Virus record (IMG/VR): IMGVR_UViG_3300044797_000048 | Coordinates: 1 to 20,037 of that record | Length of the DNA stretch: 20,037 nucleotides | Direction: 5' to 3' (one strand) | Source of the DNA: a virus | Shown: piece after piece, positions 1-20,037 of the stretch | How positions within the stretch are numbered: the first letter of the stretch is position 1 | Layout of the letters: each line of letters opens with the position of its first letter | The notes under the pieces: model-generated | Told to the model about the DNA's origin: nothing | The model's input: only the letters and a program-made list of their open reading frames with translations | Databases searched by the model: none | Program-made: the position numbers and the translations under genes

Positions 1-1965
1 CACGAGCGAGCCCGTCGTGAGCGGGAGGAGCGGGATCACGCCAAGCGCCGCCGGCACGCTGATGCTCTGATAAGTCATGCCGGTCGCGGTCCACGGCACG
101 AATCCTTGCATCGGCGGAGCCGGTTGCCAGACCTGGGCGGCGGGCGTCGCGAACACATTCGCGGTCGTCCCGGTGTTCGTGCAAATGATCGGATTCGGGA
201 ACGGCATATAAGTCGCCGCGAATTGATTCACGGTCCAGCCTTCGCCGACTCCCCAAGTCGTTTGGCCCGTCGTCGAGCCGCTCGACGCGATGAAAGAGGA
301 GGTCCCGCCGCCGGAGCTTGTGCTCCCGGTGCGGGTATTCACCAGCGACGAAGAGGAGGTCGAGGAAACCGTCGAATTATTATAAGCGGTCGGCCCCGAG
401 GTCCCGTTGATCCAATTGCAAGTGAAGGTCGTCGTCGTGCTCGAAATATCCGGCGCGGTGATGATCGAGATCCCGCCCTTGAGCGTCTCGCCGCCAAGCC
501 CGATCGCATCCGAAACCGTCGTATAGCCGGCGATCAAGGTCGTGATCGTCACCGTCGCGACAAAGGTCGCCCGCGAGGAAGGGCAAGTCGTCTGGCTGAT
601 TTGCAGCGTCGCGACTTGGAAAGGGAGCGTCGTCGCGGTCGTGCTCGTGGTCGTGTTCAGTTGATGAATCAAAAGCTCCGTTTGGGTGGTCGTGAAGGTC
701 GAGTAAGTCGTGATCCCCTGGGTCACGGTCGGGATCGGCACGGCTTGGACGGAGGTCGCGAAGGGATCAATGTCGCTCGCGGTGGTCGTCGTCGTGTAAG
801 ACGAGGAGCCGACGATCGTCACTGTCGTATTGGTCTGCAACGTGACGGTGAAGGCTCCGGCGAGGGTGGAATTGCATGTCGCCGTCGCGGCCGGCCCGGC
901 GGTTCCGGTCGGCTGGGCCGGCCAAATCGTCGTTTGCGTGACGGTCAGATATTGCCAGAGCGCCGGGGCGACGCCGGCCGCGCCGGCCGTCGCGATCGCC
1001 GCAAGATCTTTGGTCCCGGTGTTGCCGGTACAGAGGATCAAGGTCCCGATTTCCATGAACGGACCAAACCAAGAAGGGGTCGCCAGCGTGATGGAGGTCG
1101 TCGTATTGGCCGAGATCGAGCCGGTCGAGGTGCCGGAGGTAGTCACGGTCGAGCCGAGCGTCGTCGTCGTCACCGATCCGGCGCTCACCGTGTTGATCGT
1201 CGCCGTGGTCGCCGCGGTCGAGGTCGAAGTGATGGTTACGCTTTTCGAGACGGTCGTCACGGTCGGGAACGTGATCGAGGTCGCGGTAAAATAAGGCGAG
1301 CCGGTCGAGGTCGAGGTCGTCGAAGAGCTAGTCAGGCCGGAATTGCCGGCGGTGGAGGTCGTGATCGAATAGGTGTATTTCGTCGTCGAGGTCTGAATGA
1401 TGGTCGAGCTAAAGGCGGTCGAATAGGACGACGAACTCGAATATTTATAGAACGAGGTGAAGGCATTCACGAGGCCGATCGTCGAGCCGAACTCGAAGAG
1501 GACGCTCGCCCAAATCCAACAATCGGCCTTGAGCGTGGTCGTGTCCGTATTGGTCGAAGTGATGCTCTGCGTCGTCGTCGCCGTGGTCGTGGTCGAGGTC
1601 GGAATCCCCGGATGGGTGGTCGAGATCTGCGTCGTCGAAGCGGTGCTGACGGTCGTCGTCGTGGTCTGCGTAACGGTCATCAAAAACGACGAGGATTCAT
1701 ATTGGTTGGTCCAACTCGTGAGCGAGGTCGAGCCGAACGAATTATAAGCGGTTTCGAGCGTCGAAAGGGCGTGCGGTTGTAAAACCGTGAAATTGGCCGA
1801 GGCCGAGGTCGAGGCGGTTACGATCGTGGACTCGTACAAAAGTCCGCCCAAGGTCCCGGCATAGCCTACGGAGACAGTCGAGCCCGTGGTCGAGCTTGAA
1901 TTGCCCGAGGAATATTGGTCGGGCGCGTAGCTCGCGGCCCGATAGGTTGAGCAGGTGAGGAACAT
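1..1965 (-). CDS. Giant Thr/Ser-rich virion protein, C-terminus outside the window
   Basis: I translated the frame by hand from the ATG at 1965 (CAT at 1963-1965) to base 1 and found no stop in 655 codons. The gene runs off the left edge. By hand count there are about 168 Thr (26%) and 96 Ser (15%), with fewer than 30 charged residues. Long stretches consist of ACC/ACG and TCG codons, giving runs such as TTTTT and STTTT. Thr/Ser density is highest around residues 90-300. Segments near 300-360 and 575-655 look more globular, with Trp, Pro and aliphatic residues. The start lies one base after the stop of the upstream tail gene (TGAAATG), so translation is probably coupled. Its place at the distal end of the tail module suggests a tail fibre, adhesin or tip protein. 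I do not recognise a family. A mucin-like, possibly O-glycosylated surface protein is an inference from composition and from the glycosyltransferase genes in the same unit. Confidence 0.85.
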   Translation of the reverse strand, partial: MFLTCSTYRAASYAPDQYSSGNSSSTTGSTVSVGYAGTLGGLLYESTIVTASTSASANFTVLQPHALSTLETAYNSFGSTSLTSWTNQYESSSFLMTVTQTTTTTVSTASTTQISTTHPGIPTSTTTTATTTQSITSTNTDTTTLKADCWIWASVLFEFGSTIGLVNAFTSFYKYSSSSSYSTAFSSTIIQTSTTKYTYSITTSTAGNSGLTSSSTTSTSTGSPYFTATSITFPTVTTVSKSVTITSTSTAATTATINTVSAGSVTTTTLGSTVTTSGTSTGSISANTTTSITLATPSWFGPFMEIGTLILCTGNTGTKDLAAIATAGAAGVAPALWQYLTVTQTTIWPAQPTGTAGPAATATCNSTLAGAFTVTLQTNTTVTIVGSSSYTTTTTASDIDPFATSVQAVPIPTVTQGITTYSTFTTTQTELLIHQLNTTTSTTATTLPFQVATLQISQTTCPSSRATFVATVTITTLIAGYTTVSDAIGLGGETLKGGISIITAPDISSTTTTFTCNWINGTSGPTAYNNSTVSSTSSSSLVNTRTGSTSSGGGTSSFIASSGSTTGQTTWGVGEGWTVNQFAATYMPFPNPIICTNTGTTANVFATPAAQVWQPAPPMQGFVPWTATGMTYQSISVPAALGVIPLLPLTTGSLV

Positions 1966-1966
1966 T

Positions 1967-2599
1967 TCACGCCGCCGCTCCCCATTCCCAATTATACCAA
2001 GGCGTGAACGGAGCCGTGAGGAGCGCGCCCGTGTTGATCGTGTCGAAGAAAACGACAAAGGGCTGAACCCAAATATTGCCGAAGCCGACCAAGCTTTCCG
2101 CGAGCGAGCTTGCCGGAGCGAAGATCGCGATCGGGATATTAAACGAAGTCGGCGGCGCGGCGGAGGTCGCATTCGCGAGCGAGGGAAAGGTCGTCGAAGC
2201 GGCCAGGGTCGCGCCGGTCAGGTTGCCCGAGCTTGCCGTCATCTCCGCGTAAACATAATTCGTATGCGTTTGGTCGAGGGTGAGCGGGCTCATCATGTTC
2301 GACGGCAAGATCCCGCCGATCGTCCCCGGGTAGAAATTCGCGGTTTGCGAGCCCGCCGTCCCCGCGAGATACGGCCACCAGGGCGGATAAAGCGTCGCGG
2401 CGGCGGCGCTCGATCCCTTTTGCTGAAGGGGAACGAAAAGATCTCCGCCCGGGAAGCGTCCGCCATAGCCGAACGGGCTCGGGAAAACGCCCGGCAGGGT
2501 GAAGAGGGCGTCGCCGAGCCGGTTTAGATCCCGCGCGCCGGGAGCCGGGTCCCCGCGGGTGAAAGGTTGGGTCTGCCCGCTGAGAGGATTCGCCGGCAT
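1967..2599 (-). CDS. Distal tail protein, fibre-like, unknown family
   Basis: This encodes 210 aa starting with MPANPLSGQTQPF. The ATG at 2599 was chosen because it follows the upstream stop with one base between (TGACATG); the frame extends further up to 2698 but only by covering the neighbour. The first 110 residues are rich in Pro, Gly and aromatics (PFGYGGRFPGG, YPPWWPYL). The middle has a segment around LDQTHTNYVYAEMTASSG, which resembles short beta repeats seen in phage fibre and tip proteins that describe an observable with a unit strand pair. The C-terminus is hydrophobic and ends WYNWEWGAAA. Its position between the tape measure and the Thr/Ser-rich giant supports a tail-tip or fibre-base role. 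The function is inferred from position and composition only. Confidence 0.75.
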   Translation of the reverse strand: MPANPLSGQTQPFTRGDPAPGARDLNRLGDALFTLPGVFPSPFGYGGRFPGGDLFVPLQQKGSSAAAATLYPPWWPYLAGTAGSQTANFYPGTIGGILPSNMMSPLTLDQTHTNYVYAEMTASSGNLTGATLAASTTFPSLANATSAAPPTSFNIPIAIFAPASSLAESLVGFGNIWVQPFVVFFDTINTGALLTAPFTPWYNWEWGAAA

Positions 2600-2600
2600 G

Positions 2601-3290
2601 TCAGGGCGGATAAATGTTCGTATTCCATCCGGGCGGCTGGGTGCTGACCCAAACGATCGAATATGTGTAAATTTGCGTCGAGATCCCGACGTAGGCAAAA
2701 TCGACGGTCACGGCTTGGCACATGAACGCATCCGTCCCCGAGACGGTCATCCCGCCCGCCGAGATCGAGGAGGAGATCGTCCCCAAGTCGCCGAGCGCGG
2801 AGGCAAGCGTGATCGCCGAGGTCGTGCACTGCGTAAAGCGGTACGTGTTCGCGGCGGCAAGATAGACGCGGACGCCGCCGAGATTGTCCGGAGCGCCGGC
2901 CGGCCATCCCAAAAAAACTCCGGTGGAATCAAAAATCGCATCGTTGAGCGCAGAGCCGGGCGTTCCGCCCAAGGTCGAAACGAAATTCGGATGCGTCTCA
3001 ATCGGGTTGGCTTGGAGCCCGGCTTGCACGTCCACGCGGACCGCCGAGGCGGACCAAACCCCTTGATAGCGCAGGGTCGCGTATTGAAAAACCTCGTCGT
3101 ATTCCACATCATAGGCGATGCAATAAGCCCGCGAGTCGTCCGGATGGGTGTTCCCGATGACGGAAGGCGTATCGGTTTGAGCAAAGGCATATTTTGCGGT
3201 CCCGGAGATCGTCCCGTCCGTGTTATAGGAGAGCGTCGCGCCCGGCATGAGCTTGCCGCCGGTCACTGATCCGATGATGATGGCGGGCAT
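2601..3290 (-). CDS. Distal tail structural protein, unknown family
   Basis: This encodes 229 aa from an ATG at 3290, three bases after the tape-measure stop. The sequence is beta-rich and low in charge, with many Thr, Ser, Gly and aromatic residues, typical of virion proteins. It begins MPAIIIGSVTGGKL and ends with a Pro-rich tail (QPPGWNTNIYPP). Residues about 55-90 (YCIAYDVEYDEVFQYATLRY) look like alternating beta strands. I recognise no named family. The slot directly after the tape measure is where distal-tail or minor tail proteins sit in lambda-type phages, so that is the best guess. Three Cys are present but no metal-binding spacing is evident. Confidence 0.75.
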   Translation of the reverse strand: MPAIIIGSVTGGKLMPGATLSYNTDGTISGTAKYAFAQTDTPSVIGNTHPDDSRAYCIAYDVEYDEVFQYATLRYQGVWSASAVRVDVQAGLQANPIETHPNFVSTLGGTPGSALNDAIFDSTGVFLGWPAGAPDNLGGVRVYLAAANTYRFTQCTTSAITLASALGDLGTISSSISAGGMTVSGTDAFMCQAVTVDFAYVGISTQIYTYSIVWVSTQPPGWNTNIYPP

Positions 3291-3293
3291 AAA

Positions 3294-4403
3294 TCAGGCG
3301 GCGAGGAGCGGCGGCGCTTTGGCCGCGGCGGTGTTCGCTTTCAAGTTTCCGTTGATCTCGGCGAGGAGTTGATTCGTCTTCCGGGCTTCGGTCACGACCG
3401 GATCGACGATGATCGTCGAATACGCCCGCCCGCCGCCGCCTTCCTGCCGCTGCGCGCCCGCATAGTCGTGAAGGGAGACTTTGTACCCGGTGACGCGCCG
3501 CTCGGATGCCTGGGCGCGCTCATCCCGGCCATCCTCGCGGGCTTGGCGGGCTTTCTCCTCCTCGGCCTTGCGGTCCGCCTCCTCTTCGGTCCGGGCGGTC
3601 CGGGCGGCGGCTTCCTGGGCGTCCTTGGCCCGCTTCTTTTTGATCTCGTCGTCGATGTCGGCATTTTCGACGAGGGATCGGAAGGCCGCTTGGGAAAGAT
3701 TTTCCTCCGGCTTCCGATCGGAGAAGCCCTTCACTTGCCCGGAATTGAGCTTGATCTCCTCATTTTTCGCCGCGAGCGCGCCGGCCGATTCAAGGATCGT
3801 TTGCCGGAGCGATTCCTCCTTCTGCCGGTCGGCCGCGAAATTGGTCGCGCCCGAGCCCAAGCCGAAGAGCTTCTCCGCGCCGATCGCGACGGTCGCAAAA
3901 AATCCCGGGTTTTGAAGCTGGGCGTTTTTGGCTTGGTCCTCCTTCTCCTCTTTTCCCAGCGCCTTGCCCTCGCGGCGCTCCGCGGTCTGCTTGATGCCTT
4001 GGATCTCTTCGAGGAGATCGCCGGCGCTTTCAAGCTGGCGGTCGAGTTCTTCGCCCATCGACTTAAGCGCTTCCTCGCCTTTGTCGAAGGCGGACACGAG
4101 CGCCGCGCCGACGCCGGCAATCACGGCTCCGGCGAAGCCGATATTGAAGACCTCCGAGAGATGGGTCACGGCCCCGGCGAGCGCTTGCGTCGAATCCTTC
4201 GCGTTCGCGAAACTGCTCACGGTGTCGATCAGGTTCGTGCGGACGCGGCGCTCGGAATCGACGAGGAGGGCATTTGCCTGGGCTTGGCGATTCTTCGAGG
4301 CGACGAGCCGGTCCGAGGCTCCCTCGAATTGAGAGAAGCCGGACGTGTCCGCCCGGGAGGTCAATTGGACTTGGACTTCTTGTTTGGTCGTCTCGCTGGC
4401 CAT
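3294..4403 (-). CDS. Tail tape measure protein, unusually short
   Basis: This encodes 369 aa from an ATG at 4403 that shares one base with the upstream stop (TAATG). The N-terminus (QVQLTSRADTSGFSQFEGAS) resembles the opening of many tape measure proteins. A hydrophobic segment lies at residues about 88-106 (GFAGAVIAGVGAALVSAF). Charged, Ala/Glu/Lys-rich coiled-coil stretches follow at about 108-155 and 245-310. This pattern, and the place two genes after the G/T chaperone, fit a tape measure that sets tail length. At roughly 0.15 nm per residue it would give a tail near 55 nm, well below the 853-aa lambda gpH. A minor coiled-coil tail protein is the alternative, but no larger candidate exists in the window. 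Confidence 0.75.
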   Translation of the reverse strand: MASETTKQEVQVQLTSRADTSGFSQFEGASDRLVASKNRQAQANALLVDSERRVRTNLIDTVSSFANAKDSTQALAGAVTHLSEVFNIGFAGAVIAGVGAALVSAFDKGEEALKSMGEELDRQLESAGDLLEEIQGIKQTAERREGKALGKEEKEDQAKNAQLQNPGFFATVAIGAEKLFGLGSGATNFAADRQKEESLRQTILESAGALAAKNEEIKLNSGQVKGFSDRKPEENLSQAAFRSLVENADIDDEIKKKRAKDAQEAAARTARTEEEADRKAEEEKARQAREDGRDERAQASERRVTGYKVSLHDYAGAQRQEGGGGRAYSTIIVDPVVTEARKTNQLLAEINGNLKANTAAAKAPPLLAA

Positions 4404-6086: not shown

Positions 6087-6512
6087 TTATCCTTCCATTA
6101 GCCGGCGGAGATTGGCTTCCGAGACGTTCGCGCCGACGACGGCGACCCGGTTTCCTTGCTGAATGATCCGAAAAGGGAAGCGTTCCGCGTCCTTCGCCGC
6201 GCGGGCAAGGACTTTGCGGTTCTCCGCGTGCGCCTTCAGGTGCGCGACTTGATGATCGAGCGAAAGCTCCTTCGTGAAATCGGCCCAAGGGCAGGTGAGG
6301 AGCCGGAGCCAATCGAGCGTCGTCTTTTTGATTCCGCCGACGATCACTTCGCCATGCTCGAACCAAAAAATCACTTCCTTGCCGCCCTTCTCGCTGATGA
6401 CGGAGGTAATCGGCAATTGCTCGCGCCGCTGGCATCCGATTTCGATCAGGGAGGCGGCGGCGGCGATGTCCTTGGTATAGACGTGCTGCCGCTTGAAATC
6501 TTGCTCGTTCAT
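6087..6512 (-). CDS. 141-aa phage protein, DUF5659-like N-terminus, unknown function
   Basis: This encodes 141 aa from an ATG at 6512. Residues about 10-55 (HVYTKDIAAAASLIEIGCQR, then a short loop, then EVIFWFEHGE) resemble small phage proteins in which a T-D-[hydrophobic]-A-A-L helix is followed by a beta strand with alternating Phe. I think of DUF5659, at moderate confidence. The C-terminal part is helical and charged (HLKAHAENRKVLARAAKDAE) and ends NLRRLMEG. It is separated from the tail tube gene by 43 bases holding a hairpin. It is followed directly by the Tad1-like gene, so it may belong to an accessory pocket rather than to the tail. Its function is unknown. Confidence 0.7.
   Translation of the reverse strand: MNEQDFKRQHVYTKDIAAAASLIEIGCQRREQLPITSVISEKGGKEVIFWFEHGEVIVGGIKKTTLDWLRLLTCPWADFTKELSLDHQVAHLKAHAENRKVLARAAKDAERFPFRIIQQGNRVAVVGANVSEANLRRLMEG
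6090..6096 (-). promoter_or_regulatory. Strong Shine-Dalgarno before the Tad1-like gene
   Basis: The minus strand reads GGAAGGATAAAATG. The purine block GGAAGGA at 6096-6090 stands four bases before the ATG at 6085 and overlaps the end of the upstream gene. No other start in the window has a comparable ribosome binding site, which suggests this gene is translated more independently of its neighbours. Confidence 0.7.
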
Positions 6513-6522
6513 TTGAATTTTT

Positions 6523-6539
6523 CCCGCCGGGAAGGCGGG
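6523..6539 (-). other. Hairpin in the tube/141-aa intergenic gap
   Basis: A perfect 6-bp stem (cccgcc at 6523-6528 with ggcggg at 6534-6539) with a 5-base loop lies in the 43-base gap after the tail tube gene. The minus strand after the hairpin is A-rich, not T-rich, so it is not a classical terminator. It could stabilise the 3' end of the tube mRNA or hold down translation of the next gene. Confidence 0.4.
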
Positions 6540-6555
6540 TTGAAAACTGCGGGAA

Positions 6556-6960
6556 TTACGGAGTCGTGATCGAGGGGTATTGGACGAAGGAGCCCGAGAA
6601 CTTGATGAAATCCTCGTTCGTCAACCGAAGGGTGAATTCCTCGTTATACACATGCCCGCCGGAGAGCCCGGAGCCGGCTTCGTTGAACACGTTCGCCAGG
6701 GTCACGACGCCGCCCGGGTAAGCGGAGGCGGCGAGCCCGGAGAGCCCGGAGGCGTAGCCGTTCGAGAAGATCGCCGCGCCGCTCATCGTGTAAACCGCCT
6801 TCGGGGCGTAATAGCCGACCGCGATGATGTCGCCGACGTTCCCGAGGACCTCCTTGCGCTGCCGCTGGGAGGCGCGCTCGACTGAAGCGATGACGACGCC
6901 CGTCTCTGCGTTCGGGACGCCGAAGAGGAGCCCGGTTTGTCCGATTGTGATCGCGGCCAT
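6556..6960 (-). CDS. Tail tube protein candidate
   Basis: This encodes 134 aa from an ATG at 6960, 16 bases after the upstream glycosyltransferase-like stop. It is a low-charge, Gly/Ala/Thr-rich beta protein beginning MAAITIGQTGLLFGVPNAET. It has an inner segment GDIIAVGYYAPKAVYTMSGA and a C-terminal strand region (NEEFTLRLTNEDFIKFSGSF). The size and beta pattern fit a small tail tube subunit. The place upstream of the G/T chaperone also fits, although three accessory genes intervene. Another tail or neck protein cannot be excluded without a structure prediction. Confidence 0.6.
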   Translation of the reverse strand: MAAITIGQTGLLFGVPNAETGVVIASVERASQRQRKEVLGNVGDIIAVGYYAPKAVYTMSGAAIFSNGYASGLSGLAASAYPGGVVTLANVFNEAGSGLSGGHVYNEEFTLRLTNEDFIKFSGSFVQYPSITTP

Positions 6961-6976
6961 GCCTTACCCGGCCATG

Positions 6977-7915
6977 TCAATCGGCCGGATGGGGCGTAAG
7001 CTCTTTCAAGGAGCCGTCGATTTGCGGCTCAAGGATCGCGGTCGCGTTCGGGAGGGTTTTCACCGCCTGGGCGGCTTCTCCCAGGTCCAAGAGCGGCCCG
7101 GGAAGACTCAAGGCGGACGGCCGGGACGCCGGCTTGAACTTCGGCCGCTTCGGATTCGGATTGGGCTCCGCCGGCCCGGGCTTCGCCCGATCGGTCACGA
7201 GGACGAGGATCTTCGCGAGCCGGCCGCGGCCGGGGACCGCCGCTTGAGCGAGCCCGGCGATGATCCCCTTCACGGTCACGACGGCCTTTGCCGCGGCGAT
7301 CACGCCGGCAAGCTCGGGAAGCGAAGAGAAGGGCGCGGCGATCCGGCCCGGCCCGAAGTTGCGGCCGAAGGTCGCCCAAAGCTGCGGCACGCCCGGGAAT
7401 GCCTTTTCCGCCCAAGCCGCGAGGGCATTGGCGTTGATTTCGATCGGGTTGCTCTCTTGCGAGATCGGGGCGATCAGCACACAGCCGGCCGTCGCGATCG
7501 CCGCCGGCTTCGGGAGCGGGATCTCGATCGAAGGCCAAGGATTCATTTGGATCTCGCCGGCAAGCTCCGGGTTTTTCTCCGAAATGACGGAAACGACCCA
7601 AGCCCAAAAGGAGCCGCCGAAGGCAACTTGCCGCGCCTCGAATGGTCCCTCGGAATCGATGTCGATCACGCGGTCATAAAGCGGCCCGGCCTTGCGGTGA
7701 AGATTCTGATTTTCGTTCAGCCGCTCGACGACCTCGAAGGGATGATGAGGGTTTTTCCATTTCACGCCCGGCGCGAGGTCGAGCACATGCTTGTGCTCGT
7801 CGAGGCATTCGATGAAGACCTCCTCGTCCGGCCGGATCTTCTTGATCGCCTGGGCGATCGCGAGCGCCCGAAAGACGTGATACGTCCGGACATGCCGGCG
7901 GATGACGGTCTTCAT
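6977..7915 (-). CDS. GT-B-like glycosyltransferase (GT9/heptosyltransferase type), second copy
   Basis: This encodes 312 aa from the ATG at 7915, which overlaps the previous stop as ATGA. The N-terminus (IRRHVRTYHVFRALAIAQAI, then EEVFIECLDEHKHVLD) aligns by eye with the 276-aa protein encoded at 8975-9805. Shared positions include HVR, R-L/A-AQ, EVF-E, and a W followed by Pro. A second Rossmann-like half has GCVLIAPISQESNP and SLPELAGVIAAAKAVVTVKG. The latter resembles the region in GT9 heptosyltransferases where an acceptor site helix follows a sugar-nucleotide pocket. The C-terminal 80 residues are Pro/Lys-rich (KPGPAEPNPNPKRPKFKP) and likely disordered. The donor and acceptor are unknown. 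A catalytically degenerate relative is possible. Confidence 0.65.
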   Translation of the reverse strand: MKTVIRRHVRTYHVFRALAIAQAIKKIRPDEEVFIECLDEHKHVLDLAPGVKWKNPHHPFEVVERLNENQNLHRKAGPLYDRVIDIDSEGPFEARQVAFGGSFWAWVVSVISEKNPELAGEIQMNPWPSIEIPLPKPAAIATAGCVLIAPISQESNPIEINANALAAWAEKAFPGVPQLWATFGRNFGPGRIAAPFSSLPELAGVIAAAKAVVTVKGIIAGLAQAAVPGRGRLAKILVLVTDRAKPGPAEPNPNPKRPKFKPASRPSALSLPGPLLDLGEAAQAVKTLPNATAILEPQIDGSLKELTPHPAD

Positions 7916-8172
7916 CGCTGGTCGCCGCCGATCCCGGCCGCGATGAGCTTGCGTTGCCGCCGCATCCGCTGGCATTGCGGGGACATTCCCCAATCACGGG
8001 GCGAATGGGAGCTTCGGCGGGCGAGCGGATGCACGTTGAGGAGCGGAGCGTTCGACGAAGCGACTTCCGAGCCCGCGGAGAGCCTCGGCATGAGCGCGCC
8101 CATCGTCGCGGCCAGGATGCCGAGCCGGGAGATCCGGCCCTCGATTTTCTGACGGTGTTTTTCGGAGTCCAT
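7912..8172 (-). CDS. 86-aa protein, unknown
   Basis: This encodes 86 aa from the ATG at 8172 (MDSEKHRQKIEGRISRLG). It stops in an ATGA overlap with the following glycosyltransferase-like gene, which supports translation. The first half is probably helical with a hydrophobic patch (LGILAATMGALMPRLSAG). The second half is basic, with one Cys and many Arg (QCQRMRRQRKLIAAG). A longer frame to 8235 would overlap the upstream gene, and the start at 8172 is 16 bases after that gene's stop. No family is recognised. It could be a neck protein or an accessory partner of the glycosyltransferase. Confidence 0.6.
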   Translation of the reverse strand: MDSEKHRQKIEGRISRLGILAATMGALMPRLSAGSEVASSNAPLLNVHPLARRSSHSPRDWGMSPQCQRMRRQRKLIAAGIGGDQR

Positions 8173-8188
8173 GATGCCGGATTGAGCG

Positions 8189-8659
8189 TCAACGGGTGGG
8201 CGTCGCATGGACCTCGAATTCCCAGTGGTAAGCATAAAGCCGCATTTCCTGGGAGACTTCGACCTCGCCCTCGGGCCGGGCGATCACGCCGTAAACGGTG
8301 AGCGGGATCGCGCTCGCGGCGGTGAGCCGGAGCGCAAGATCCTGCATCGGGCCGCGGTTGGTGAGGTCGTTCCGATAGAAGGTTTGCCGGACGCTCCGGA
8401 TCAAGGAGGAGGTCGTCTCCGGATCGAGCGTGTCCGCCTTGACCTGCAATTCGAGATCGACCCGCTGCTTGAAGACGCCGGAGCCCGGCGCGAGTTCTTC
8501 GACCTGATCCCGGCAGCGGATCAGAAGCCCGGGATGCTTGATTTCATCCGTGCTTCCGCTCGTGAAGATGGCGAGATCCGGCAGCAGGCCGCGGATCATC
8601 AGGGCAAACGCGGCTTCCGTGAGGAGCCGCGGATCGAAGGTGTTCAAGGGCGCGCTCAT
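8189..8659 (-). CDS. Tail terminator / tail-completion candidate
   Basis: This encodes 156 aa from an ATG at 8659 in an ATGA overlap with the previous gene (MSAPLNTFDPRLLTEAAF). The alpha/beta pattern PGLLIRCRDQVEELAPGSGV, then a strand VDLELQVKAD, then a helix with IRSVRQTFYRNDL, resembles tail terminator and neck proteins of siphoviruses. It ends in a strand-rich segment (LYAYHWEFEVHATPTR). The position after the head-tail joining candidate and before the tail tube matches lambda gpZ/gpU. The role is inferred from fold pattern and order. Confidence 0.6.
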   Translation of the reverse strand: MSAPLNTFDPRLLTEAAFALMIRGLLPDLAIFTSGSTDEIKHPGLLIRCRDQVEELAPGSGVFKQRVDLELQVKADTLDPETTSSLIRSVRQTFYRNDLTNRGPMQDLALRLTAASAIPLTVYGVIARPEGEVEVSQEMRLYAYHWEFEVHATPTR

Positions 8660-8985
8660 TTGCCGTCGATCAAGGCGAAGGAATAAGTCGCTCCGTCCGG
8701 AGAGACATGCCACGTCAAGACCTCCCAATCCGGATCGCCGTCGAGGACCACAGGCATTCCCTCCTTCAGCTTCACGCCGACCAAATTCGCCGCGAGCGCC
8801 ATCAATCCTTGCGCCCGGTGAATCTCCCGGCCGGCAATTTCGAGCTTGTCGGACTCGGCAAGCTCCGTGAGGCACACTTGAAACGACGCGCCGCCGATCT
8901 CAAAGGTCGAAGTGAATTGCCGCGCGAAGACGTTCCCGATCAGGCGGGCATAAGAGGCGCGGGCGGTTGGGTTGTTATCGGGCAT
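8656..8985 (-). CDS. Head-tail joining protein candidate
   Basis: This encodes 109 aa from the ATG at 8985 (MPDNNPTARASYARLIGNVF), overlapping the end of the upstream gene by 11 bases. The frame continues to 9060, but that extension is Arg/Ser-rich and lies inside the neighbour, so I rejected it. The C-terminal half has KLKEGMPVVLDGDPDWEVLTW followed by a final strand. This beta-barrel-like pattern is similar to small head-tail connector proteins such as lambda gpFII (117 aa). It is ATGA-coupled to the tail terminator candidate, as expected for neck genes. Confidence 0.6.
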   Translation of the reverse strand: MPDNNPTARASYARLIGNVFARQFTSTFEIGGASFQVCLTELAESDKLEIAGREIHRAQGLMALAANLVGVKLKEGMPVVLDGDPDWEVLTWHVSPDGATYSFALIDGK

Positions 8986-9805
8986 TCTGCGGGACGATCG
9001 ACGGGCAAATCGACGCGAAGGAGACTTCCCATCGCGCTTGCCCTTTGGCGATGATGTCATCTTGGGAGCGCTCGCGCGGATCGAGCGGACTCACATGATG
9101 CCACTTCTCGCGGATGCGCTCCGAGCCGACGAAGGCGGAGCAAATCGCGGAAACCGTCCCGTTGATGGTCGCGACGCCGGCCGCGCCCTTGCAGAGCGCC
9201 GGTAGATCCGGCAAATGCGAGACGGTCAGCGGCCGGAGCGCCGGATTCGGGGCGAAGCCGCCCGGCCCGATCAGATACATCGGTTGCGGGAGTTCGCCGG
9301 CAATTTCAAGCCCGCGAGCCCAGGCGAAAATCATCTCGAAGCCGATCGGCACGAGATCACAGAAACCGCGTTGCTGGGCGTAGGAGAAGCCGGTCATGCA
9401 GAGGAGAGAATACTTCGCCGGCAGGTGATACTTTGCCCGGGTCGCCTCGACCTCGGGGATCTTCGAGAAACGGATCTCGCGCGGCGCGCCCTTGAAATCC
9501 TTCGGGGACATCCCGACGATGAAATCCCAAAACTTCGGAGCCGGATGATCGGTCCGATATTTGCTGGTAAAGCGCGGGTTGATCGTGAGCGGGAAGACGA
9601 CCTCGAAGGGCGCGCCGTCGTCCTGGGGCCGGCCCTTGCGCCGCGGGTCCTGCCAGCGGCAATAATCGACGCAATCGAAGATCGATTCATAAGCCGGGAG
9701 CGTCTCAAAAAAGACCTCGTGCTTCTGCTTCGCCAAATGCTGCGCGAGCGGGAGAAGCCGGATGATCTCGGAGAGCCGGACGTGATATTGAATACAAATT
9801 CTCAT
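8975..9805 (-). CDS. GT-B-like glycosyltransferase (GT9/heptosyltransferase type), first copy
   Basis: This encodes 276 aa from the ATG at 9805, ATGA-coupled to a 47-aa microgene. The N-terminus MRICIQYHVRLSEIIRLLPL, then HEVFFETLPAYESIFD, looks like the first Rossmann strand-helix unit of GT9 ADP-heptose transferases. A second domain contains YLIGPGGFAPNP and HLPDLPALCKGAAGVATING. This resembles the donor-binding region of that family, in which a Gly-rich loop precedes a helix and a conserved T-x-x-G site. It is shorter than usual (about 320-350 aa for GT9). The 312-aa protein at 6977-7915 is a divergent paralogue. A likely role is attachment of a sugar to a virion component or to a host surface glycan. 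The substrate is unknown. Confidence 0.65.
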   Translation of the reverse strand: MRICIQYHVRLSEIIRLLPLAQHLAKQKHEVFFETLPAYESIFDCVDYCRWQDPRRKGRPQDDGAPFEVVFPLTINPRFTSKYRTDHPAPKFWDFIVGMSPKDFKGAPREIRFSKIPEVEATRAKYHLPAKYSLLCMTGFSYAQQRGFCDLVPIGFEMIFAWARGLEIAGELPQPMYLIGPGGFAPNPALRPLTVSHLPDLPALCKGAAGVATINGTVSAICSAFVGSERIREKWHHVSPLDPRERSQDDIIAKGQARWEVSFASICPSIVPQNAR

Positions 9806-9945
9806 TTGGTTTGGCGACTCTCACATTTACGCGGCACCGGATGTTGGGCGACTATTTCAATTTTGGGCTTCGGTCCTTTCGGCGTTTGCCAAGGCCACGG
9901 TTCTGCGCACGGGCGTCCGTTTTTATAGACAATTTTTGCATTCAT
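9802..9945 (-). CDS. 47-aa microgene between two glycosyltransferase genes
   Basis: This is a small frame from ATG at 9945 to TGA at 9802-9804. Its start overlaps the upstream stop (GAATGA) and its stop overlaps the next start (AAATGAG), so it is locked by ATGA junctions on both sides. The product begins MNAKIVYKNGRPCAEPWPW and ends VPRKCESRQTK. It is basic and rich in Pro and Lys, with two Cys and a WPW motif. It exactly fills what would otherwise be a gap between the two glycosyltransferase genes. No family is recognised. A partner or chaperone of the glycosyltransferases is a guess from position. Confidence 0.65.
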   Translation of the reverse strand: MNAKIVYKNGRPCAEPWPWQTPKGPKPKIEIVAQHPVPRKCESRQTK

Positions 9946-11849
9946 TCGATTTTATAGCGTGGATTCCTGCGGTTGAACAGGGCTTTGCCTTGCTCGTATC
10001 GGTCGGCGGCATTCTGCGCCGCGTAAGTCGCATCGAGCGGCTTGCCGGCAAAAAGCGGGTGATCGTGGACAAAGGTGAGATCCCGCCCGTCGATCACGAC
10101 GCCGTTCTCATAAGCGCGGACCGTGAATTCGTTGTCCGAATAGACGCCCAAATAATCCGGATGGAAGAGATAAGGATCGCCGGTCCGCTCGTGCTTCTGG
10201 CGGAGGTAGTATTGCCGCGTCAGGATCGCCATGCAAAGGAGCTTGTCCGTTCGATGCCCGTCCGAGATCGCGAGGACCGCCGGCCGGTTATGCTCGATCG
10301 CCACTTGCATCCGCCAAATAATGAGATTGTCCCAGTGATGCGGCACGATCCAATCATCGGACATTTGCACGAGGACTTTGCCGCGGGAGAGCGCCGCCGC
10401 CGCATTCCACGCCCGCACGCAACCGCCGCCGGGCTCGACCGTGACGACGTTGCATCCGTCCAACTCTTCGACGCTCTCCTTGTCGTCCGCATCGATCGCG
10501 AAAATGTGCTCGATCATCCCCGGCTTCAGCGCCGCCCGGAGCCATTGATCCCGGGTCGCGAGCGCCTTCTCGGGCCGGCCGCGGGTCGCGTGCAAGAGCG
10601 AGATCATCGGCGCGCCGCCGTGCTCCTCGTCCTCGATCTTGAGCGCCGCCTCGGGAGCCTTCAGCTTCCGGCAGATAAAGGCGTTCGTGAGATTCGCCTG
10701 CCATCCGTACCAAGCATCCTCGATCCAATTCGGCCGCTCGTTCACGGGCGGCATGTTGATGCACTTCGCGAGTTGAATCCAAGTGAGCGCCCGGGTCCAA
10801 TCCTTCCGGGCATTGTACGAGAGCGACATGATGCAATAACACTCGCGCCGGTACGGGGCGAGCCGGAGCCCGTTCAAGCACATGTTTTCGCATTGGCCGA
10901 AGTCGCCGACATCGAGGTACAGCTTCGCGAGGTTATAATAAACCGCGTACTTTTCGGCGGGGGTGAGGTTTTCCGCCTTTGCCGCCATGACTCCCCACTT
11001 GATCGCCTCGTTCGGCTTGGCGAGAAGGAGAGAGTCGCGATGGAGATAAAAGTAAATCATCGCCGAGGGCTCGATCGCATTTTCCAAGATCCGGAGATTC
11101 CGCGAGAGGCTCTTAATCGCCTTGTTCGAGCGCTGCTTGTCGGGAAGGGGAAGGTGAAAGACTTCGAGATCCGGCCGCGCCCGGCCGATGAATTTCCCGG
11201 GCGGCGGCAGCGAGAGCGCCTCGTGCACGGGTTGGACCCAAGGACAATTCAGGGAGCGCCGGATCACGCGCTCACGCATGAGCGGCGGTTTCCCGGCGAT
11301 CCGGTAATGCATGAAGAGCACGTCGAAGAGCCCGAGATCGACCTCCGCTCGGAGCTTGGCGATCGTGTCCGAGTCAATGATGTCGTCGCAATCGGCCCAC
11401 ATGATGAACTTGCCGCGGGCGAGATCCCAGGCGGCTTGCCGCGCCTTCGCGAAGTTGTCCACATGCGGCCAATGGGCGAGGTTCGCCTCATTGTGATATT
11501 CGGCGATCCGGAGCGGCTTGCGGACCTGCTCCCGGGCGATCGCGATCGTCTCATCCGGCACGAGGGAGCCGATTGCCCGGACAAGGACGATCTCGTCCAC
11601 CAAGGGCTCAAAAGCCGCCAGGAAGCGGCCGATGTGATGCTCCTCGTTCCCGACGATGCAAGCCAAGGTGAACCAGGGAGCCGGCCCGTCGCCGATACCC
11701 AGGTCGGCCCGGATCTCGGGGAGCGCCTGGGAAGGGTCCCTTTGGGGCGGAATCGGCTCGTCCCGGCCAGGATCGGCCGCGGGCGGGACATCGGCAGGGC
11801 TCGGCGGCTTGATTAGGTCCAAAAGATCCGGGGCGGTGCTTGAATCCAT
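9942..11849 (-). CDS. Two-domain GT-A glycosyltransferase with central helical (TPR-like) region
   Basis: This encodes 635 aa from an ATG at 11849. Residues 1-57 are Pro/Asp-rich and probably disordered. A family-2-like glycosyltransferase domain starts at about 58 (FTLACIVGNEEHHIGRFLAA) and has GKFIMWADCDDII at about 146-158. The ADCDD supplies the DxD-type metal and nucleotide-sugar site. Residues about 250-405 are helical and TPR-like (YAVYYNLAKLYLDVGDFGQC). A second GT-A domain begins at about 414 (MISLLHATRGRPEKALATRD), has GGGCVRAWNAAAALSRGK and MSDDW at about 497-500, and ends with VHDHP at about 594-598. Two catalytic domains around a repeat region suggest transfer of two sugars or building of a short glycan on a protein target. 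It sits directly in the late structural operon. Sugar and acceptor are unknown. Confidence 0.8.
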   Translation of the reverse strand: MDSSTAPDLLDLIKPPSPADVPPAADPGRDEPIPPQRDPSQALPEIRADLGIGDGPAPWFTLACIVGNEEHHIGRFLAAFEPLVDEIVLVRAIGSLVPDETIAIAREQVRKPLRIAEYHNEANLAHWPHVDNFAKARQAAWDLARGKFIMWADCDDIIDSDTIAKLRAEVDLGLFDVLFMHYRIAGKPPLMRERVIRRSLNCPWVQPVHEALSLPPPGKFIGRARPDLEVFHLPLPDKQRSNKAIKSLSRNLRILENAIEPSAMIYFYLHRDSLLLAKPNEAIKWGVMAAKAENLTPAEKYAVYYNLAKLYLDVGDFGQCENMCLNGLRLAPYRRECYCIMSLSYNARKDWTRALTWIQLAKCINMPPVNERPNWIEDAWYGWQANLTNAFICRKLKAPEAALKIEDEEHGGAPMISLLHATRGRPEKALATRDQWLRAALKPGMIEHIFAIDADDKESVEELDGCNVVTVEPGGGCVRAWNAAAALSRGKVLVQMSDDWIVPHHWDNLIIWRMQVAIEHNRPAVLAISDGHRTDKLLCMAILTRQYYLRQKHERTGDPYLFHPDYLGVYSDNEFTVRAYENGVVIDGRDLTFVHDHPLFAGKPLDATYAAQNAADRYEQGKALFNRRNPRYKIE

Positions 11850-11884: not shown

Positions 11885-12367
11885 TCAGCAGCGGACGAGC
11901 TTGCCGCCGTGCAAATGCCCGTGCCACTCGTCCGGCTGTCCCTGATTGACCCAAATCGAGCCCGCGCCGGCCGCGCATGTGCTATCCCCAGGCTCGGGCG
12001 TCTTATCGACATGCAAGGTTCCATCCTTGGCGCTCCCGTGCCGGCACCAACACGAATGCGGCTCGTTAGGCCGGGTGCAATTCGAGGCGCGCCCGTCGAT
12101 CGACCAATGTTCCCCGTTCGGGAGCTTACAGCACAGGTAAAGCCCGTCCTTCTTGGCGCTCCCGAGGCAATTCATCTTATCCGCGGTGACGTGCTCGGCG
12201 AGCCAATCGGCATTCCAAACCGCGCCGGGCTCCGCCTCACCGAGCAAGACCTTTTTCCCGGTCCGCGTGTCGATCCAATATCGGCGGCTCCGGCGACCTC
12301 CTTCGATCTCCTCGACAAGCTCTTCTTCGGTCGCTTCGAGCCAATAGACGGTGACGGGCGCGCTCAT
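11885..12367 (-). CDS. Conserved phage Cys/His-containing protein, unknown function
   Basis: This encodes 160 aa from an ATG at 12367 in an ATGA overlap with the upstream gene. It opens MSAPVTVYWLEATEEELVEE, then RRYWIDTRTGKKVLLG. Further on it has WSIDGRASNCTRPNEPHSCW, then CRHG, TVDK-like HVDK, and TCAAGAGSIWV, and ends EWHGHLHGGKLVRC. I recognise this as a recurring phage protein pattern (RA-NCT, CW-RHG, CAAGAGSI, WHGFL) of unknown function. Clustered Cys and His suggest a possible metal site. The upstream 104-aa protein ends in a similar WHGHL-x2-G-x-L motif. It lies just downstream of the capsid gene. Confidence 0.75.
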   Translation of the reverse strand: MSAPVTVYWLEATEEELVEEIEGGRRSRRYWIDTRTGKKVLLGEAEPGAVWNADWLAEHVTADKMNCLGSAKKDGLYLCCKLPNGEHWSIDGRASNCTRPNEPHSCWCRHGSAKDGTLHVDKTPEPGDSTCAAGAGSIWVNQGQPDEWHGHLHGGKLVRC

Positions 12368-12678
12368 GGTTCGGATCTCAAGCGGCCGGCTTCAAGGTGG
12401 CCGTGCCAATAACCTTTGTTTTCGATCGAGGGCTTCAGCGTCGGACGCTCGAAATTGCCATCCCATCCCCAAACGTGAGCGAGGGAGGCATCGCCGATCC
12501 GGATCGGCATCACGGCGACGCCGGGACCCGACCGGCTGAATTCTCCGGGGAGGAGGAGGATCATCAGATGGGAAGCGCCGGGCGTCGCCGACATCCCTTC
12601 GGCGATCACGTAATCGCCCGGGAGGACGAGATCATCGACCGTCGCTCGCCGTCGCGTATCGCAATGCTCCTTGTTCAT
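12364..12678 (-). CDS. Small conserved phage protein, WHGHL tail, unknown function
   Basis: This encodes 104 aa from the ATG at 12678 (MNKEHCDTRRRATVDDLVL). A longer frame would use TTG at 12699, but that codon lies inside the terminator stem-loop, so I rejected it. The C-terminal part has VWGWDGNFERPTLKPSIENK followed by GYWHGHLEAGRL. The GW-WDGN-PTL-PSI pattern is widespread in small phage proteins whose function I do not know. The ATG directly follows the U tract of a terminator and has no Shine-Dalgarno sequence, so expression should be low compared with the capsid gene. Confidence 0.7.
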   Translation of the reverse strand: MNKEHCDTRRRATVDDLVLPGDYVIAEGMSATPGASHLMILLLPGEFSRSGPGVAVMPIRIGDASLAHVWGWDGNFERPTLKPSIENKGYWHGHLEAGRLRSEP

Positions 12679-12738: not shown

Positions 12739-13719
12739 TCAGGTGATCTTCGAGCCCGAGCTTGCGCTCGTGATGATGAGTTGCCCGGCGCGGGCGTCGA
12801 TGACCTTCTCGACGACCGATTGGCGGACCCGGAGCACGTCGGAGCGCTTGTCCTCATCGCGATAGGCTTCCACGGCCTTGAAGCCGCCGTCTTCGGCCCA
12901 TTCGATCGTTCGCATCGCGCCGCCGGCCAGGAAGTCGCCGCCGGAGATCTTGCCGACCCAAATGTAAGCATTCGTCCAAATGGGTTGCCCGAGGTACAAT
13001 TGACCTTCGCCGCCGATGTCCTGATAAGCGCCGCCGATCAGCAAGCGCTCGATCCCTTGGTCGAAAAAGACCTGGGCGGCTTGCTCGGGCGTGAGCACGG
13101 TCGGGAGCACGGTCGGGAAATTGCCGCGGACGTAGTTTTGAAAGAGCGGCGCGCGCCGGATGTAATTCCACAGCGGGTAGCTAAGGACGATCGTGTTCGC
13201 GATCGTGCCGATCCCGCGTTGATATTCGCACGCCGTTTGCACGTCGTTCACGAAGTCCACGGCGGCGAGGTTCGCTTGCGAATAAGCGGTCGTCGCGGAG
13301 AACGAGGTGAAGGAGGTCGTGCTCATCAGCAAGTTTTCGACGCGGACCTCGTAAGCGAGCATGAGCTTCGCGTCGAGGATCCGGGCGGTCGAGACTTCGA
13401 GGTCGAGATAACGGTCCGCGTATTGCTTGAGGGAGTCGTCCACGGTGGACTTGTACCCGTAATCGTTCGTCTCGAATTGATCGGACGACCAGGACGAAGT
13501 AACCTCTTGATAAGAGGTCCCGGGCGCGCGACGGTTCTCGTCGATGCGCTGCGCGCCGCGTTGCTCAAGCGAGCGGAAAAGGTACTGGCCCGCCTTGCCG
13601 CCGCCGTTATAAATCGGCGCGACTTTCTCGGCGATGCAGAATTTCAGGGCATCAAGCCCTTGTTCGAGCGCGGTGCGGACATCCGCGCGAAGAATTGTGC
13701 CGCCGACCGGATAAGGCAT
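12739..13719 (-). CDS. Major capsid protein (lambda gpE-like, HK97 fold)
   Basis: This encodes 326 aa from an ATG at 13719, close in length to lambda gpE (341 aa). It matches the gpE-type pattern. There is an N-terminal helix-rich part, a long middle with QANLAAVDFVNDVQTACEYQ, and a segment PLWNYIRRAPLFQNYVRGNF. The C-terminal region has GQPIWTNAYIWVGKISGG, TIEWAEDGGFKAVEAYRDED and a final SVVEKVIDARAGQLIITSAS. The last pattern, W followed by a yre-sDv-rv stretch and a terminal strand, is typical of this capsid family. It follows the decoration protein and is followed by a strong terminator, as expected for the most abundant virion protein. There is no clear Shine-Dalgarno sequence; the leader is pyrimidine-rich (CTCCTCCCATG). 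Confidence 0.88.
   Translation of the reverse strand: MPYPVGGTILRADVRTALEQGLDALKFCIAEKVAPIYNGGGKAGQYLFRSLEQRGAQRIDENRRAPGTSYQEVTSSWSSDQFETNDYGYKSTVDDSLKQYADRYLDLEVSTARILDAKLMLAYEVRVENLLMSTTSFTSFSATTAYSQANLAAVDFVNDVQTACEYQRGIGTIANTIVLSYPLWNYIRRAPLFQNYVRGNFPTVLPTVLTPEQAAQVFFDQGIERLLIGGAYQDIGGEGQLYLGQPIWTNAYIWVGKISGGDFLAGGAMRTIEWAEDGGFKAVEAYRDEDKRSDVLRVRQSVVEKVIDARAGQLIITSASSGSKIT
13093..13116. repeat. 12-bp perfect tandem repeat inside the capsid gene
   Basis: The unit gagcacggtcgg occurs twice back to back within the capsid coding sequence. It keeps frame and encodes PTVLPTVL on the minus strand. It is probably a small in-frame duplication in a loop. Confidence 0.7.
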
Positions 13720-17065: not shown

Positions 17066-18793
17066 TTATTTCGCCGAGCGCGCATGTTCGCCGTCTTCGA
17101 TCCGGCTGAAAAGCTCGTCCGCGGTCATTTCGAGCGCACGGACCTTCCGCGAGAGCGAAGAAATCCCGGCCGAATCGCTGCCGCCGGCTCCGCCGCCGCC
17201 GGCTTGCCCGCGTTGCCCTCCGGTCGTGCTCGGAGTGGGCCGCGGCTCGATCAGTTCGATCGGGATGCTCTTTTGCTTCGCCTGTTGAATCTTGAACGCC
17301 GCGTCATCGGCCATCCGTTCGACCTCCTCGCGCGGATTGCCGCCTTGCTCACGGACGATCCGGTCGAAGCTTTTCAAGCCCGCCTCGTATTCGGTGACGT
17401 TCGCCCGGCTCTCGCGGCCGACATCGACAGTCGGATGCGCCGGGACGCAAACATTGACTTTCGGGAGGCGCGAAAGATTTCTGAAGCGAAGCCGGCCGGT
17501 GACGATGCCGTTCGCGATGCAGCGCTTGAAATACGGCTGATAAAGTCCTTCGTCCATGAAGGCTTGCCATTGCTCGAAGGTCCGCTTCGCCTGGGCGGAT
17601 TCGAGCCGGGCCGGCACGCCGCCGAGCGTGGACGTGTCGAAGGAGAAGCCGAAGGGCATGCAAAGGGCGGTACAGACCTGCCGATAAAGGAGGGCGACAA
17701 AGCCGTTGAACGACGAGGACGGCCGATCGGTCTTCGCCGCCTCGATCGACTCGCCGATCCCAAGATAGCCGATTTGCCCGGGACGAAAATCCTCGTAAAC
17801 CCGTTCGGTCGTGAACGCGCCGGCCGGGCCGATCGTCGGGAGCACGCCGGGGACCTCGGCGGCGAAGATGCGCTCCGGATTCGCCGCCGACGCATCGCCC
17901 GGCGCGGTTTTGACAAAGCCCGCCCAAGAGTTTGCCCATTTGACGCCGAGCTTCTCGTTCGCGAGGATCTCCTTGATGTCGCGGGCGGTCGTGACGGCGG
18001 AGGCGATCGCCGAGATGCCGCGATATTGGTCCGTCCGCTGCCGGTTTGCCAAAAACTGAAATTGATTCGCGGGCACGCGGGTATATTCGCTTTGGTAATA
18101 CCCGAAATTATTCCGGGGGTAGATGCGATAACCGAGGACCTTTCCGGTCGCGGAATCATACTCGACGCCCGAGACGAGCCCGGGCTCGATCCAATAATGA
18201 TAGCCGCCGATCACATCGGATTCGCAAGATTGAAGCTGAATCCATGAAACCGGCCGGCCCATGATCGCTGAACCTTCCGGATCGGCGACATCGTGGAAAA
18301 TGCTCCCGAAGTCGCCGTCGCGGATCACGGACTTGAAAATCAGGCGCGCAAGCTCCGTGAATTTCGATTTGCCCGTGAGATCGCAATTTTGCATGCACTC
18401 GTAAAGGTAATCTTCGAGCATCGCGTCGTCGCCGGGATCGCCCGTGATCGCCTCGATCCGGATCTTCGGCCCGACGACGTAATGCGACATCCGGTCGAAG
18501 AGCCCGTGAATGAAGGGATCGTTCATCTCCAAATCGCGCGCCTCCCAAACGATTTGCAGGCGGTCGGAGGAATTTAGCGGAGTGTTCGACGTGATCGTTC
18601 CGGCGCGGGTCGCGTTCATCCGCGCCCGGGTGATCCGCGCGCCCTCATACCCGAAGGCGTGCCGCCGCTCGCGGGCGATCGCGTTCCGCAGCGCCGCTTG
18701 GGGCGCGACGATGCTCAAAGCCCGGTCGGCGATCCGCTCCGCGAAATTCGGCTGATAAGGCTTATACCCTTGCTCTCGAATATCGGTCTGCAT
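17066..18793 (-). CDS. Portal protein (lambda gpB family)
   Basis: I place the start at the ATG at 18793 (MQTDIREQGYKPYQPNFAER), giving 575 aa; a longer start at 18829 would overlap the upstream gene by 23 bases. It carries typical lambda-type portal features. These are an N-terminal RARMNATRAGTITSNTPLNS, then DPFIHGLFDRMSHYVVGP, the wing and stem region with YHYWIEPGLVSGVEYD and YRGISAIASAVTTARDIKEI, and VALLYRQVCTALCMPFGF. The C-terminus has a helical segment (SLSRKVRALEMTADELFSRI) after a Gly-rich linker. Lambda gpB is 533 aa, so the length fits. The portal is the dodecameric ring at the capsid vertex through which DNA is packaged. Confidence 0.9.
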   Translation of the reverse strand: MQTDIREQGYKPYQPNFAERIADRALSIVAPQAALRNAIARERRHAFGYEGARITRARMNATRAGTITSNTPLNSSDRLQIVWEARDLEMNDPFIHGLFDRMSHYVVGPKIRIEAITGDPGDDAMLEDYLYECMQNCDLTGKSKFTELARLIFKSVIRDGDFGSIFHDVADPEGSAIMGRPVSWIQLQSCESDVIGGYHYWIEPGLVSGVEYDSATGKVLGYRIYPRNNFGYYQSEYTRVPANQFQFLANRQRTDQYRGISAIASAVTTARDIKEILANEKLGVKWANSWAGFVKTAPGDASAANPERIFAAEVPGVLPTIGPAGAFTTERVYEDFRPGQIGYLGIGESIEAAKTDRPSSSFNGFVALLYRQVCTALCMPFGFSFDTSTLGGVPARLESAQAKRTFEQWQAFMDEGLYQPYFKRCIANGIVTGRLRFRNLSRLPKVNVCVPAHPTVDVGRESRANVTEYEAGLKSFDRIVREQGGNPREEVERMADDAAFKIQQAKQKSIPIELIEPRPTPSTTGGQRGQAGGGGAGGSDSAGISSLSRKVRALEMTADELFSRIEDGEHARSAK

Positions 18794-18806
18794 TTTGACG
18801 CCCGGG

Positions 18807-19064
18807 TCAGGTAGTGAAGCCGCCGCCATAGGCCAGGGTCCGCCGCACGCGGTTGCTCCCTTGCGTGTCCTGGGCGGCTTGGATCTCCGCCCGGAATTGG
18901 GTCAGTTCCGACATATTGGCGAGGGTCATCGAGCGACCCGTGATCGAGTGTCCTTGCCCGGTCTGAAGCACATCGAGGATGCATTGATCCGTCGCCGCGG
19001 CATATTGCACCAGCGTCGCCGCCGGCAGCTTCGCGAGATAATTCGTGATTTGTCCAAGAGCCAT
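18807..19064 (-). CDS. gpW-like head-tail joining protein
   Basis: This encodes 85 aa. I chose the ATG at 19064 (MALGQITNYLAKLPAATLVQ), which is 16 bases after the terminase stop; an upstream start at 19148 would run inside the terminase gene. The C-terminal pattern HSITGRSMTLANMSELTQFR followed by a helix resembles small gpW-type proteins, which carry a G-R-S-x-T-x-A-x-L helix hairpin. The place between terminase and portal is the classical gpW position. It would plug the portal after packaging and help join the tail. Confidence 0.78.
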   Translation of the reverse strand: MALGQITNYLAKLPAATLVQYAAATDQCILDVLQTGQGHSITGRSMTLANMSELTQFRAEIQAAQDTQGSNRVRRTLAYGGGFTT

Positions 19065-19080: not shown

Positions 19081-20037
19081 TCAAGAGGGCGCGGGGGGCT
19101 CCTCGGGCGGCGGCGCGGCGCGCCGGAGCGGTCCCTTGATGAGTCCAAAGACGACTTGCATTGCCTCGCAATCCCAAAGGTGATTGGGGCGCTTGCCGAC
19201 GCGGACCCATCGCCGGATCTCCCGGGTCCCGCGCGTCTCGACGACCTGCTTCCGCTCGCTTGTCATTTGGTTCAAGTAGAATTGCGGCACGTCCGAGCCG
19301 ATCCCGAAGTAAACCGCCTTCCCGCCGTAAAGCCGGGCGAGGATGTCCTTGCAAGGCGTGTTCGCCCACATGATCTCAACCGCCCGCCGCCGGAGCGCGT
19401 CGCCTTGCTTGTCCGTGCCGATCGCCGTATCCACGACGCGCGGCTCGGAAAAATAGCGGCGGATCGGGCTCTTCAGTCCCTTCGAGTGGACAAAGGAATC
19501 CTCATCCCGGCCGCGGAGCGCGAGCCATCCCCATTGGGCGCAGCGTTCGAGGACCTCGCTCGGATTATACGTCACATCGCAAAGGACCATTCGATCAGTG
19601 ACTTGGTTTTTCTGCTGAAGCTCGCGGAGTTGATCCCAGGTATGGGCATAGCCGCATTGCCGGAGCCGCGATCGGCCGTCGTCGGCCCAATCGCGGACGA
19701 CAAACCAGAAGTAAGGAGCCAATTCTTGCACGTCGATCGTCATCGCGACGCATGATCCTTCCTTCCACGGCTCGCCGGTCATCGAATAATCGCCGGTCGA
19801 ATTCGTATTCACGTCGAAGATCACGTCGTCCGACCAAGGCTCATTCAGTCCCTTGAGGATGAATTGCTTCATCTCCTCGTCGTCGCCGAGGTCGAGCGAT
19901 TGCTGCGCGTTCAGAAATTGTTTTACGAGGTCCGCCCAGGGATAAACGGCGACGCCCGAGACGGCCCAAGCCCGCGTCTTCATCGAGGCGCTCGGATTGA
20001 AGGCGCGGTAACGCATCTTCTGCCGGAGCTTGACCCG
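19081..20037 (-). CDS. Terminase large subunit, C-terminal nuclease part (GpA family), N-terminus outside the window
   Basis: 318 codons are visible. The frame stays open to the right edge, so the ATPase part lies beyond the window. The visible part matches the nuclease half of GpA-type terminases. It has VAMTIDVQELAPYFWFVVRD with a likely metal-binding Asp, MVLCDVTYNPSEVLERCAQW with a second Asp, and the late motif RPNHLWDCEAM typical of this family. The C-terminus is Pro/Glu-rich (RRAAPPPEEPPAPS), which in terminases can contact the portal. It cuts concatemeric DNA and powers packaging into the prohead. The assignment is firm. Confidence 0.9.
   Translation of the reverse strand, partial: RVKLRQKMRYRAFNPSASMKTRAWAVSGVAVYPWADLVKQFLNAQQSLDLGDDEEMKQFILKGLNEPWSDDVIFDVNTNSTGDYSMTGEPWKEGSCVAMTIDVQELAPYFWFVVRDWADDGRSRLRQCGYAHTWDQLRELQQKNQVTDRMVLCDVTYNPSEVLERCAQWGWLALRGRDEDSFVHSKGLKSPIRRYFSEPRVVDTAIGTDKQGDALRRRAVEIMWANTPCKDILARLYGGKAVYFGIGSDVPQFYLNQMTSERKQVVETRGTREIRRWVRVGKRPNHLWDCEAMQVVFGLIKGPLRRAAPPPEEPPAPS

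Follow-up and report, generated by a model that had tools for sequence, protein, structure and literature searches.

The Thr/Ser-rich gene at the edge of this phage contig raises the question of whether its product is glycosylated by an enzyme that the phage itself encodes, and if so by which one. Phage virion glycosylation is known so far from cultured actinobacteriophages, and phage-encoded glycosyltransferases are held responsible for the virion glycans. In mycobacteriophages, structural proteins bear glycans (Freeman et al. 2023, cited in PMC12619734), and work cited in PMC12619734 reports these at the C-termini of capsid and tail-tube subunits. The window analysed here is a 20,037-base IMG/VR virus fragment, IMGVR_UViG_3300044797_000048, with tailed-phage late genes on the minus strand in the order terminase, portal, capsid and then tail genes (Table 1). 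The original prediction paired the Thr/Ser-rich protein, TS, with three putative glycosyltransferases of the same window, and its guess was right about the type of system and wrong about the enzymes. Our analysis instead points to a fourth gene, GT4, found in relatives of the window phage. Because a Thr/Ser-rich tail-region gene adjoins GT4 in almost every GT4 genome found, the results suggest that the tail of these uncultured viruses is partly decorated with sugar. Several of the viruses are linked to Verrucomicrobiota.

Table 1. Positions of the genes of the window that are discussed in the text
Feature	Positions	Strand	Description
TS	1..1965	-	Late protein rich in Thr and Ser; N-terminal 654 aa, the rest past the contig edge; 916 aa in the sister phage
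g2	1967..2599	-	About 210 aa, small, of structural type; in relatives, its gene immediately precedes TS-type genes
g3	2601..3290	-	Putative tail protein, 229 aa; 67% identical in sister phage G001
Tape-measure-position gene	3294..4403	-	369 aa, 30% charged; putative function, from position and composition
GT3	6977..7915	-	Paralogue of GT2 and possible glycosyltransferase; matches no family
GT2	8975..9805	-	Possible glycosyltransferase; no family match; found only in the window phage and G001
GT1	9942..11849	-	Two GT-A domains, the first Glycos_transf_2, with a TPR-like middle; sits behind the capsid gene
Major capsid protein	12739..13719	-	phrog_1005
Portal protein	17066..18829	-	Lambda family (Phage_portal_2)
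Terminase large subunit	19081..20037	-	C-terminal part (GpA_nuclease); truncated at the contig edge

The Thr/Ser-rich gene and a sister phage

The long, low-charge Thr/Ser-rich frame described at the contig edge was confirmed. On the minus strand it runs without a stop from the ATG at 1965-1963 to the edge and comprises 654 complete codons (26% T, 15% S and 4% D+E+K+R); its start lies one base past the stop codon of the gene before it. A scan with the capsid protein returned one relative, G001 (IMGVR_UViG_3300050116_000063, 32,533 bases), which has the same gene order and is identical to the window at 60% for GT1, 41% for GT2, 35% for GT3 and 51% for g2. The start of g2 was set at the ATG at 2599 from its likeness to the G001 start. 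G001 encodes a complete TS, and directly after it GT4 (440 aa). GT4 is absent from the window because the contig ends inside TS; judging from the sister phage, the GT4 of the window phage would lie beyond the contig edge.

The TS proteins of the two phages are 37% identical in alignment. Identity of the two genes by codon position was 0.48/0.55/0.34, and different codons were used at 129 of the 232 identical residues. Thr and Ser codon usage and GC3 were similar to those of the other window genes. The codon-position conservation relative to the sister phage indicates that TS is a translated coding sequence. Its composition is not a matter of chance, since T+S was far lower in the other ORFs of at least 300 aa in the fetched loci (median 0.11, 95th percentile 0.24). 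Opposite TS, a 593-codon antisense frame is open on the plus strand at 1-1782; it probably arises as a side effect of the GC-rich codons of a Thr/Ser-rich gene and is not a gene itself. No G001 counterpart was found for two other parts of the window, the three ORFs from the protease-position gene to the portal gene (15427-17042) and the two small ORFs between the capsid gene and GT1 (11885-12699), one of which matches phrog_15183, of unknown function.

Glycosyltransferase candidates inside the window

The two-domain GT-A protein of the original prediction, GT1, was supported by matches to Glycos_transf_2 (E 7.6e-10), phrog_13126 and phrog_14945. Each of these two phage glycosyltransferase families matches one half of GT1, which differs in joining both in a single protein with a TPR-like middle. 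GT1 has at least 202 relatives in IMG/VR. Of 50 GT4 contigs, 19 had GT1; of 50 GT1 contigs, 3 had GT4. On these reciprocal counts, GT1 was rejected as the dedicated partner of TS. Co-occurrence across related phages was seen for GT4 and Thr/Ser-rich genes, and GT1 proved neither necessary nor specific. GT1 sits behind the capsid gene, which suggests that it has a target other than TS, possibly the head. Among the 80 loci found with GT1 (L008-L087), two (G002 and G003) carry g2, a Thr/Ser-rich gene and GT4 in a row; in L064, the GT1 relative (6233-8479) also has a Methyltransf_24 domain.

GT2 and GT3 had been labelled GT-B-like. Neither gave a match to PF01075 or a sequence match in Pfam, PHROG, NCBIfam or the PDB, and their reading as GT9-like GT-B enzymes is unsupported, with no Glyco_transf_9 or other GT-B match. 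The two are paralogues of each other and were found only in the window phage and G001.

Linkage of GT4 to Thr/Ser-rich genes

To GT4, we found at least 221 relatives in the metagenomic viral contigs of IMG/VR; the alignment scans yielded 22 loci and then the best 80 of 221. GT4 was also present in five bacterial genome contigs, one labelled Betaproteobacteria and four labelled Verrucomicrobiota (Rariglobus, Opitutales, a Verrucomicrobiota bacterium and Chthoniobacter). Because four of the bacterial contigs bear Verrucomicrobiota names, a Verrucomicrobiota host of the window phage is likely but unproven.

After removal of 13 repeated contigs, 94 distinct GT4 contigs were available. ORFs were taken as Thr/Ser-rich partners if they encode at least 300 aa, reach a T+S of 0.20 and lie no further than 600 bases from GT4, and the final count covered both sides of GT4, as upstream-only counting misses convergent partners. 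Such a partner adjoined GT4 in 90 of the 94 contigs, with T+S of at least 0.24 in 81 and at least 0.28 in 54. The linkage to GT4 lends strong comparative support to the original idea of a Thr/Ser-rich protein with an enzyme of its own, although the enzyme is not among the three first named. In 78 contigs the partner lies upstream on the same strand, overlapping GT4 in 27, and in 12 it lies downstream and convergent. When contigs were grouped by GT4 identity at 80%, the partner was present in 46 of 48 clusters. All 12 convergent loci belong to one of these clusters, so the convergent arrangement may be a single rearrangement. Two of the four exceptions (L106 and L180) end near GT4, one (L102) has one gene between the pair, and one (L140) is clearly without a Thr/Ser-rich neighbour of GT4. 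Control genes from the same loci adjoined another Thr/Ser-rich gene in only 3 of 361 cases. In 71 of 76 loci, compared with 14 expected, the partner exceeded every other gene, of about six per locus, in Thr/Ser content. The linkage is thus tight across divergent phages and occurs in two orientations.

Because these loci had been chosen by GT4, we also performed a separate scan that started from g2. A Thr/Ser-rich protein without any glycosyltransferase was sought in this way and none was found, as all 17 loci carry GT4, two of them in new contigs. The g2 set is small, comes from few lineages and shares 15 of its 17 contigs with the GT4 scans, so that it lowers the bias from GT4-based locus choice in part, without removing it.

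An alignment of 19 GT4 proteins revealed an invariant SD within a DSD/ESD motif and a G-T-[E/Q]-D motif. In the AlphaFold2 model of GT4 (pLDDT 82), the DSD/ESD follows a strand at 107-112; GT4 of the relatives has a predicted GT-A fold with a DxD-type motif after the fourth strand. A Foldseek search of the PDB with this model gave human COLGALT1 as the top match (PDB 9evj, 9evk; E 2.5e-7, TM-score 0.42-0.45, 14% identity), and chondroitin polymerase and other GT-A enzymes as further matches. COLGALT1, a collagen hydroxylysine galactosyltransferase, is like the GT4 model in being GT-A and is a protein O-glycosyltransferase, but its acceptor is collagen hydroxylysine and not Thr/Ser. Some GT4 members also gave weak Glyco_tranf_2_3 or Glycos_transf_2 matches, and GT4 had no match among 50,697 annotated phage records. 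The model and motifs support the assignment of GT4 as a GT-A glycosyltransferase; with TM-scores below 0.5, the fold matches support a GT-A enzyme and not specificity for a protein acceptor. Phage glycosyltransferase genes are therefore found among late structural genes both in the window (GT1) and, next to TS, in its relatives (GT4).

TS as a putative acceptor and its relation to known systems

We consider it probable, at about 0.6, that TS has a structural role at the tail tip or in the fibre region and is the acceptor of the dedicated GT4 that adjoins it. In such a system, of which we infer the virion location and acceptor role of TS, the O-linkage, the identity of the sugar and the benefit, TS would be made late in infection. 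GT4, which has a DxD-type motif, would glycosylate TS at Thr/Ser hydroxyls, with a nucleotide sugar of host or phage origin as donor. This would occur in the cytoplasm of the infected cell, either ahead of tail assembly or while it proceeds, and the glycosylated TS would then be built into the tail tip. The sugar might hydrate or shield a protein with very few charges, or alter adsorption. RmlD/epimerase, cytidylyltransferase-like, sulfotransferase-like and WbuC-like cupin genes lie near GT4 in some relatives, which fits with sugar supply and tailoring; in such phages the sulfotransferase-like or sugar-nucleotide neighbours might tailor the glycan, the former hinting at sulfated glycans. A broader reading, to which we give slightly less than even odds, is that g2, the Thr/Ser-rich protein and GT4 form a widespread module with optional sulfation or sugar-nucleotide genes, in which the acceptor and a GT-A O-glycosyltransferase co-evolve and the product is a densely glycosylated, mucin-like tail tip. 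Other acceptors of GT4 are possible, namely g2, g3, a further virion protein or a glycan of the host.

The last of these acceptors belongs to an alternative in which the target of GT4 is a glycan on the host surface, as happens in serotype conversion or superinfection exclusion, and GT4 stays with TS because TS is the fibre that binds this glycan as receptor. The Foldseek matches of GT4 include GtrB and polysaccharide synthases, GT4 adjoins a gene in tail-fibre position, and nucleotide-sugar genes lie near it in some phages, all of which would fit. We nevertheless regard this alternative as unlikely, as GtrABC-type membrane neighbours were not found among the scanned downstream genes, GT4 usually belongs to the late structural genes and often overlaps TS, and the consistent Thr/Ser bias of its neighbour would be left unexplained.

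That bias was examined across the proteins adjacent to GT4, in which T+S had a median of 0.30 and a range of 0.20-0.43, with the window TS at the high end (0.41). TS proteins of different phages often have no BLAST similarity to each other, and a direct search of viral contigs with the TS protein gave no matches; T+S was kept at 28-41% in the first 21 TS loci despite this divergence. The term mucin-like, used in the original prediction, is apt for this composition, a long, low-charge Thr/Ser-rich region kept while the sequence diverges. It does not extend to the proline-rich Thr/Ser repeats of mucins: proline averages 3.7% in TS proteins, hydrophobic residues are frequent, and Thr/Ser shows the lag-2 spacing of beta strands (mean z of 2.25 across 80 non-redundant proteins). 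Because of the lag-2 recurrence and the scarce proline, a beta-rich fibre with outward hydroxyls appears, from composition and spacing, as likely as a disordered mucin. Structure prediction of TS from a two-sequence alignment gave no confident model (pLDDT 27.5).

These features could also mean that Thr/Ser richness reflects nothing more than a beta-structured fibre with threonine ladders, and that the glycosyltransferases act on the capsid, tail tube or other virion proteins, as the place of GT1 behind the capsid gene would allow. Tail fibres in GT1 phages without GT4 reach a T+S of 0.22-0.29, so the lowest GT4-linked values are unremarkable by themselves, and part of the linkage signal may be that GT4 lies beside a tail-fibre gene. 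The window TS stands out from such ordinary fibres. We find the fibre-only account decidedly improbable, since it does not explain why GT4 lies beside TS in nearly all contigs, the convergent ones included, and not beside capsid or tail-tube genes. Hypermodification of phage DNA instead of protein is very remote: DNA-glycosylating phage glycosyltransferases are known (work cited in PMC12619734), but the genes here lie within a structural operon, GT4 is linked to the gene of a Thr/Ser-rich protein, and no base-hypermodification gene was prominent among the scanned neighbours.

Glycosylation of phage virions as such is already known; what sets this variant apart is the unusually strong genomic link between a putative substrate and its enzyme. 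Compared with the mycobacteriophages, the putative acceptor is a large Thr/Ser-rich tail-region protein with its own GT-A family, GT4. The cultured Verrucomicrobia phage P8625 (KP792622; PMC4642752) has a related terminase and portal and a similar head gene order, but differs from the window phage in lacking GT4, GT1 and g2 and in having ordinary tail fibre genes; its tail-fibre-region genes have a T+S of 20-23%. The recurrence of the pair across GT4 clusters means that the acceptor of a phage glycosyltransferase may be predictable from gene order. If glycosylation of TS by GT4 is real, it would show a way for uncultured phages to sugar-coat an exposed part of the tail, and GT4 would be a source of new protein O-glycosyltransferases with natural multi-site acceptors.

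Several minor observations were made in the GT4 loci. A C-terminal 'EP' motif was considered as a common feature of TS proteins and rejected, as it was present in 24 of 79, not clearly above expectation (shuffled mean 16, maximum 28). Genes resembling sulfotransferases are located at L102:9250-9948 (weak match), L224:10040-10831 and L225:10269-11060, either separating TS from GT4 or a short way past GT4. In the 12 convergent loci (L143, L144, L146-L149, L151, L155, L156, L160, L162 and L165), a 142-aa gene precedes GT4; that of L143 has a match to Polysacc_synt_C and a weak one to the WbuC cupin family. In L119, GT4 is preceded by two large tandem proteins, encoded at 448-2769 and by the next gene, with T+S of 42% and then 20%.
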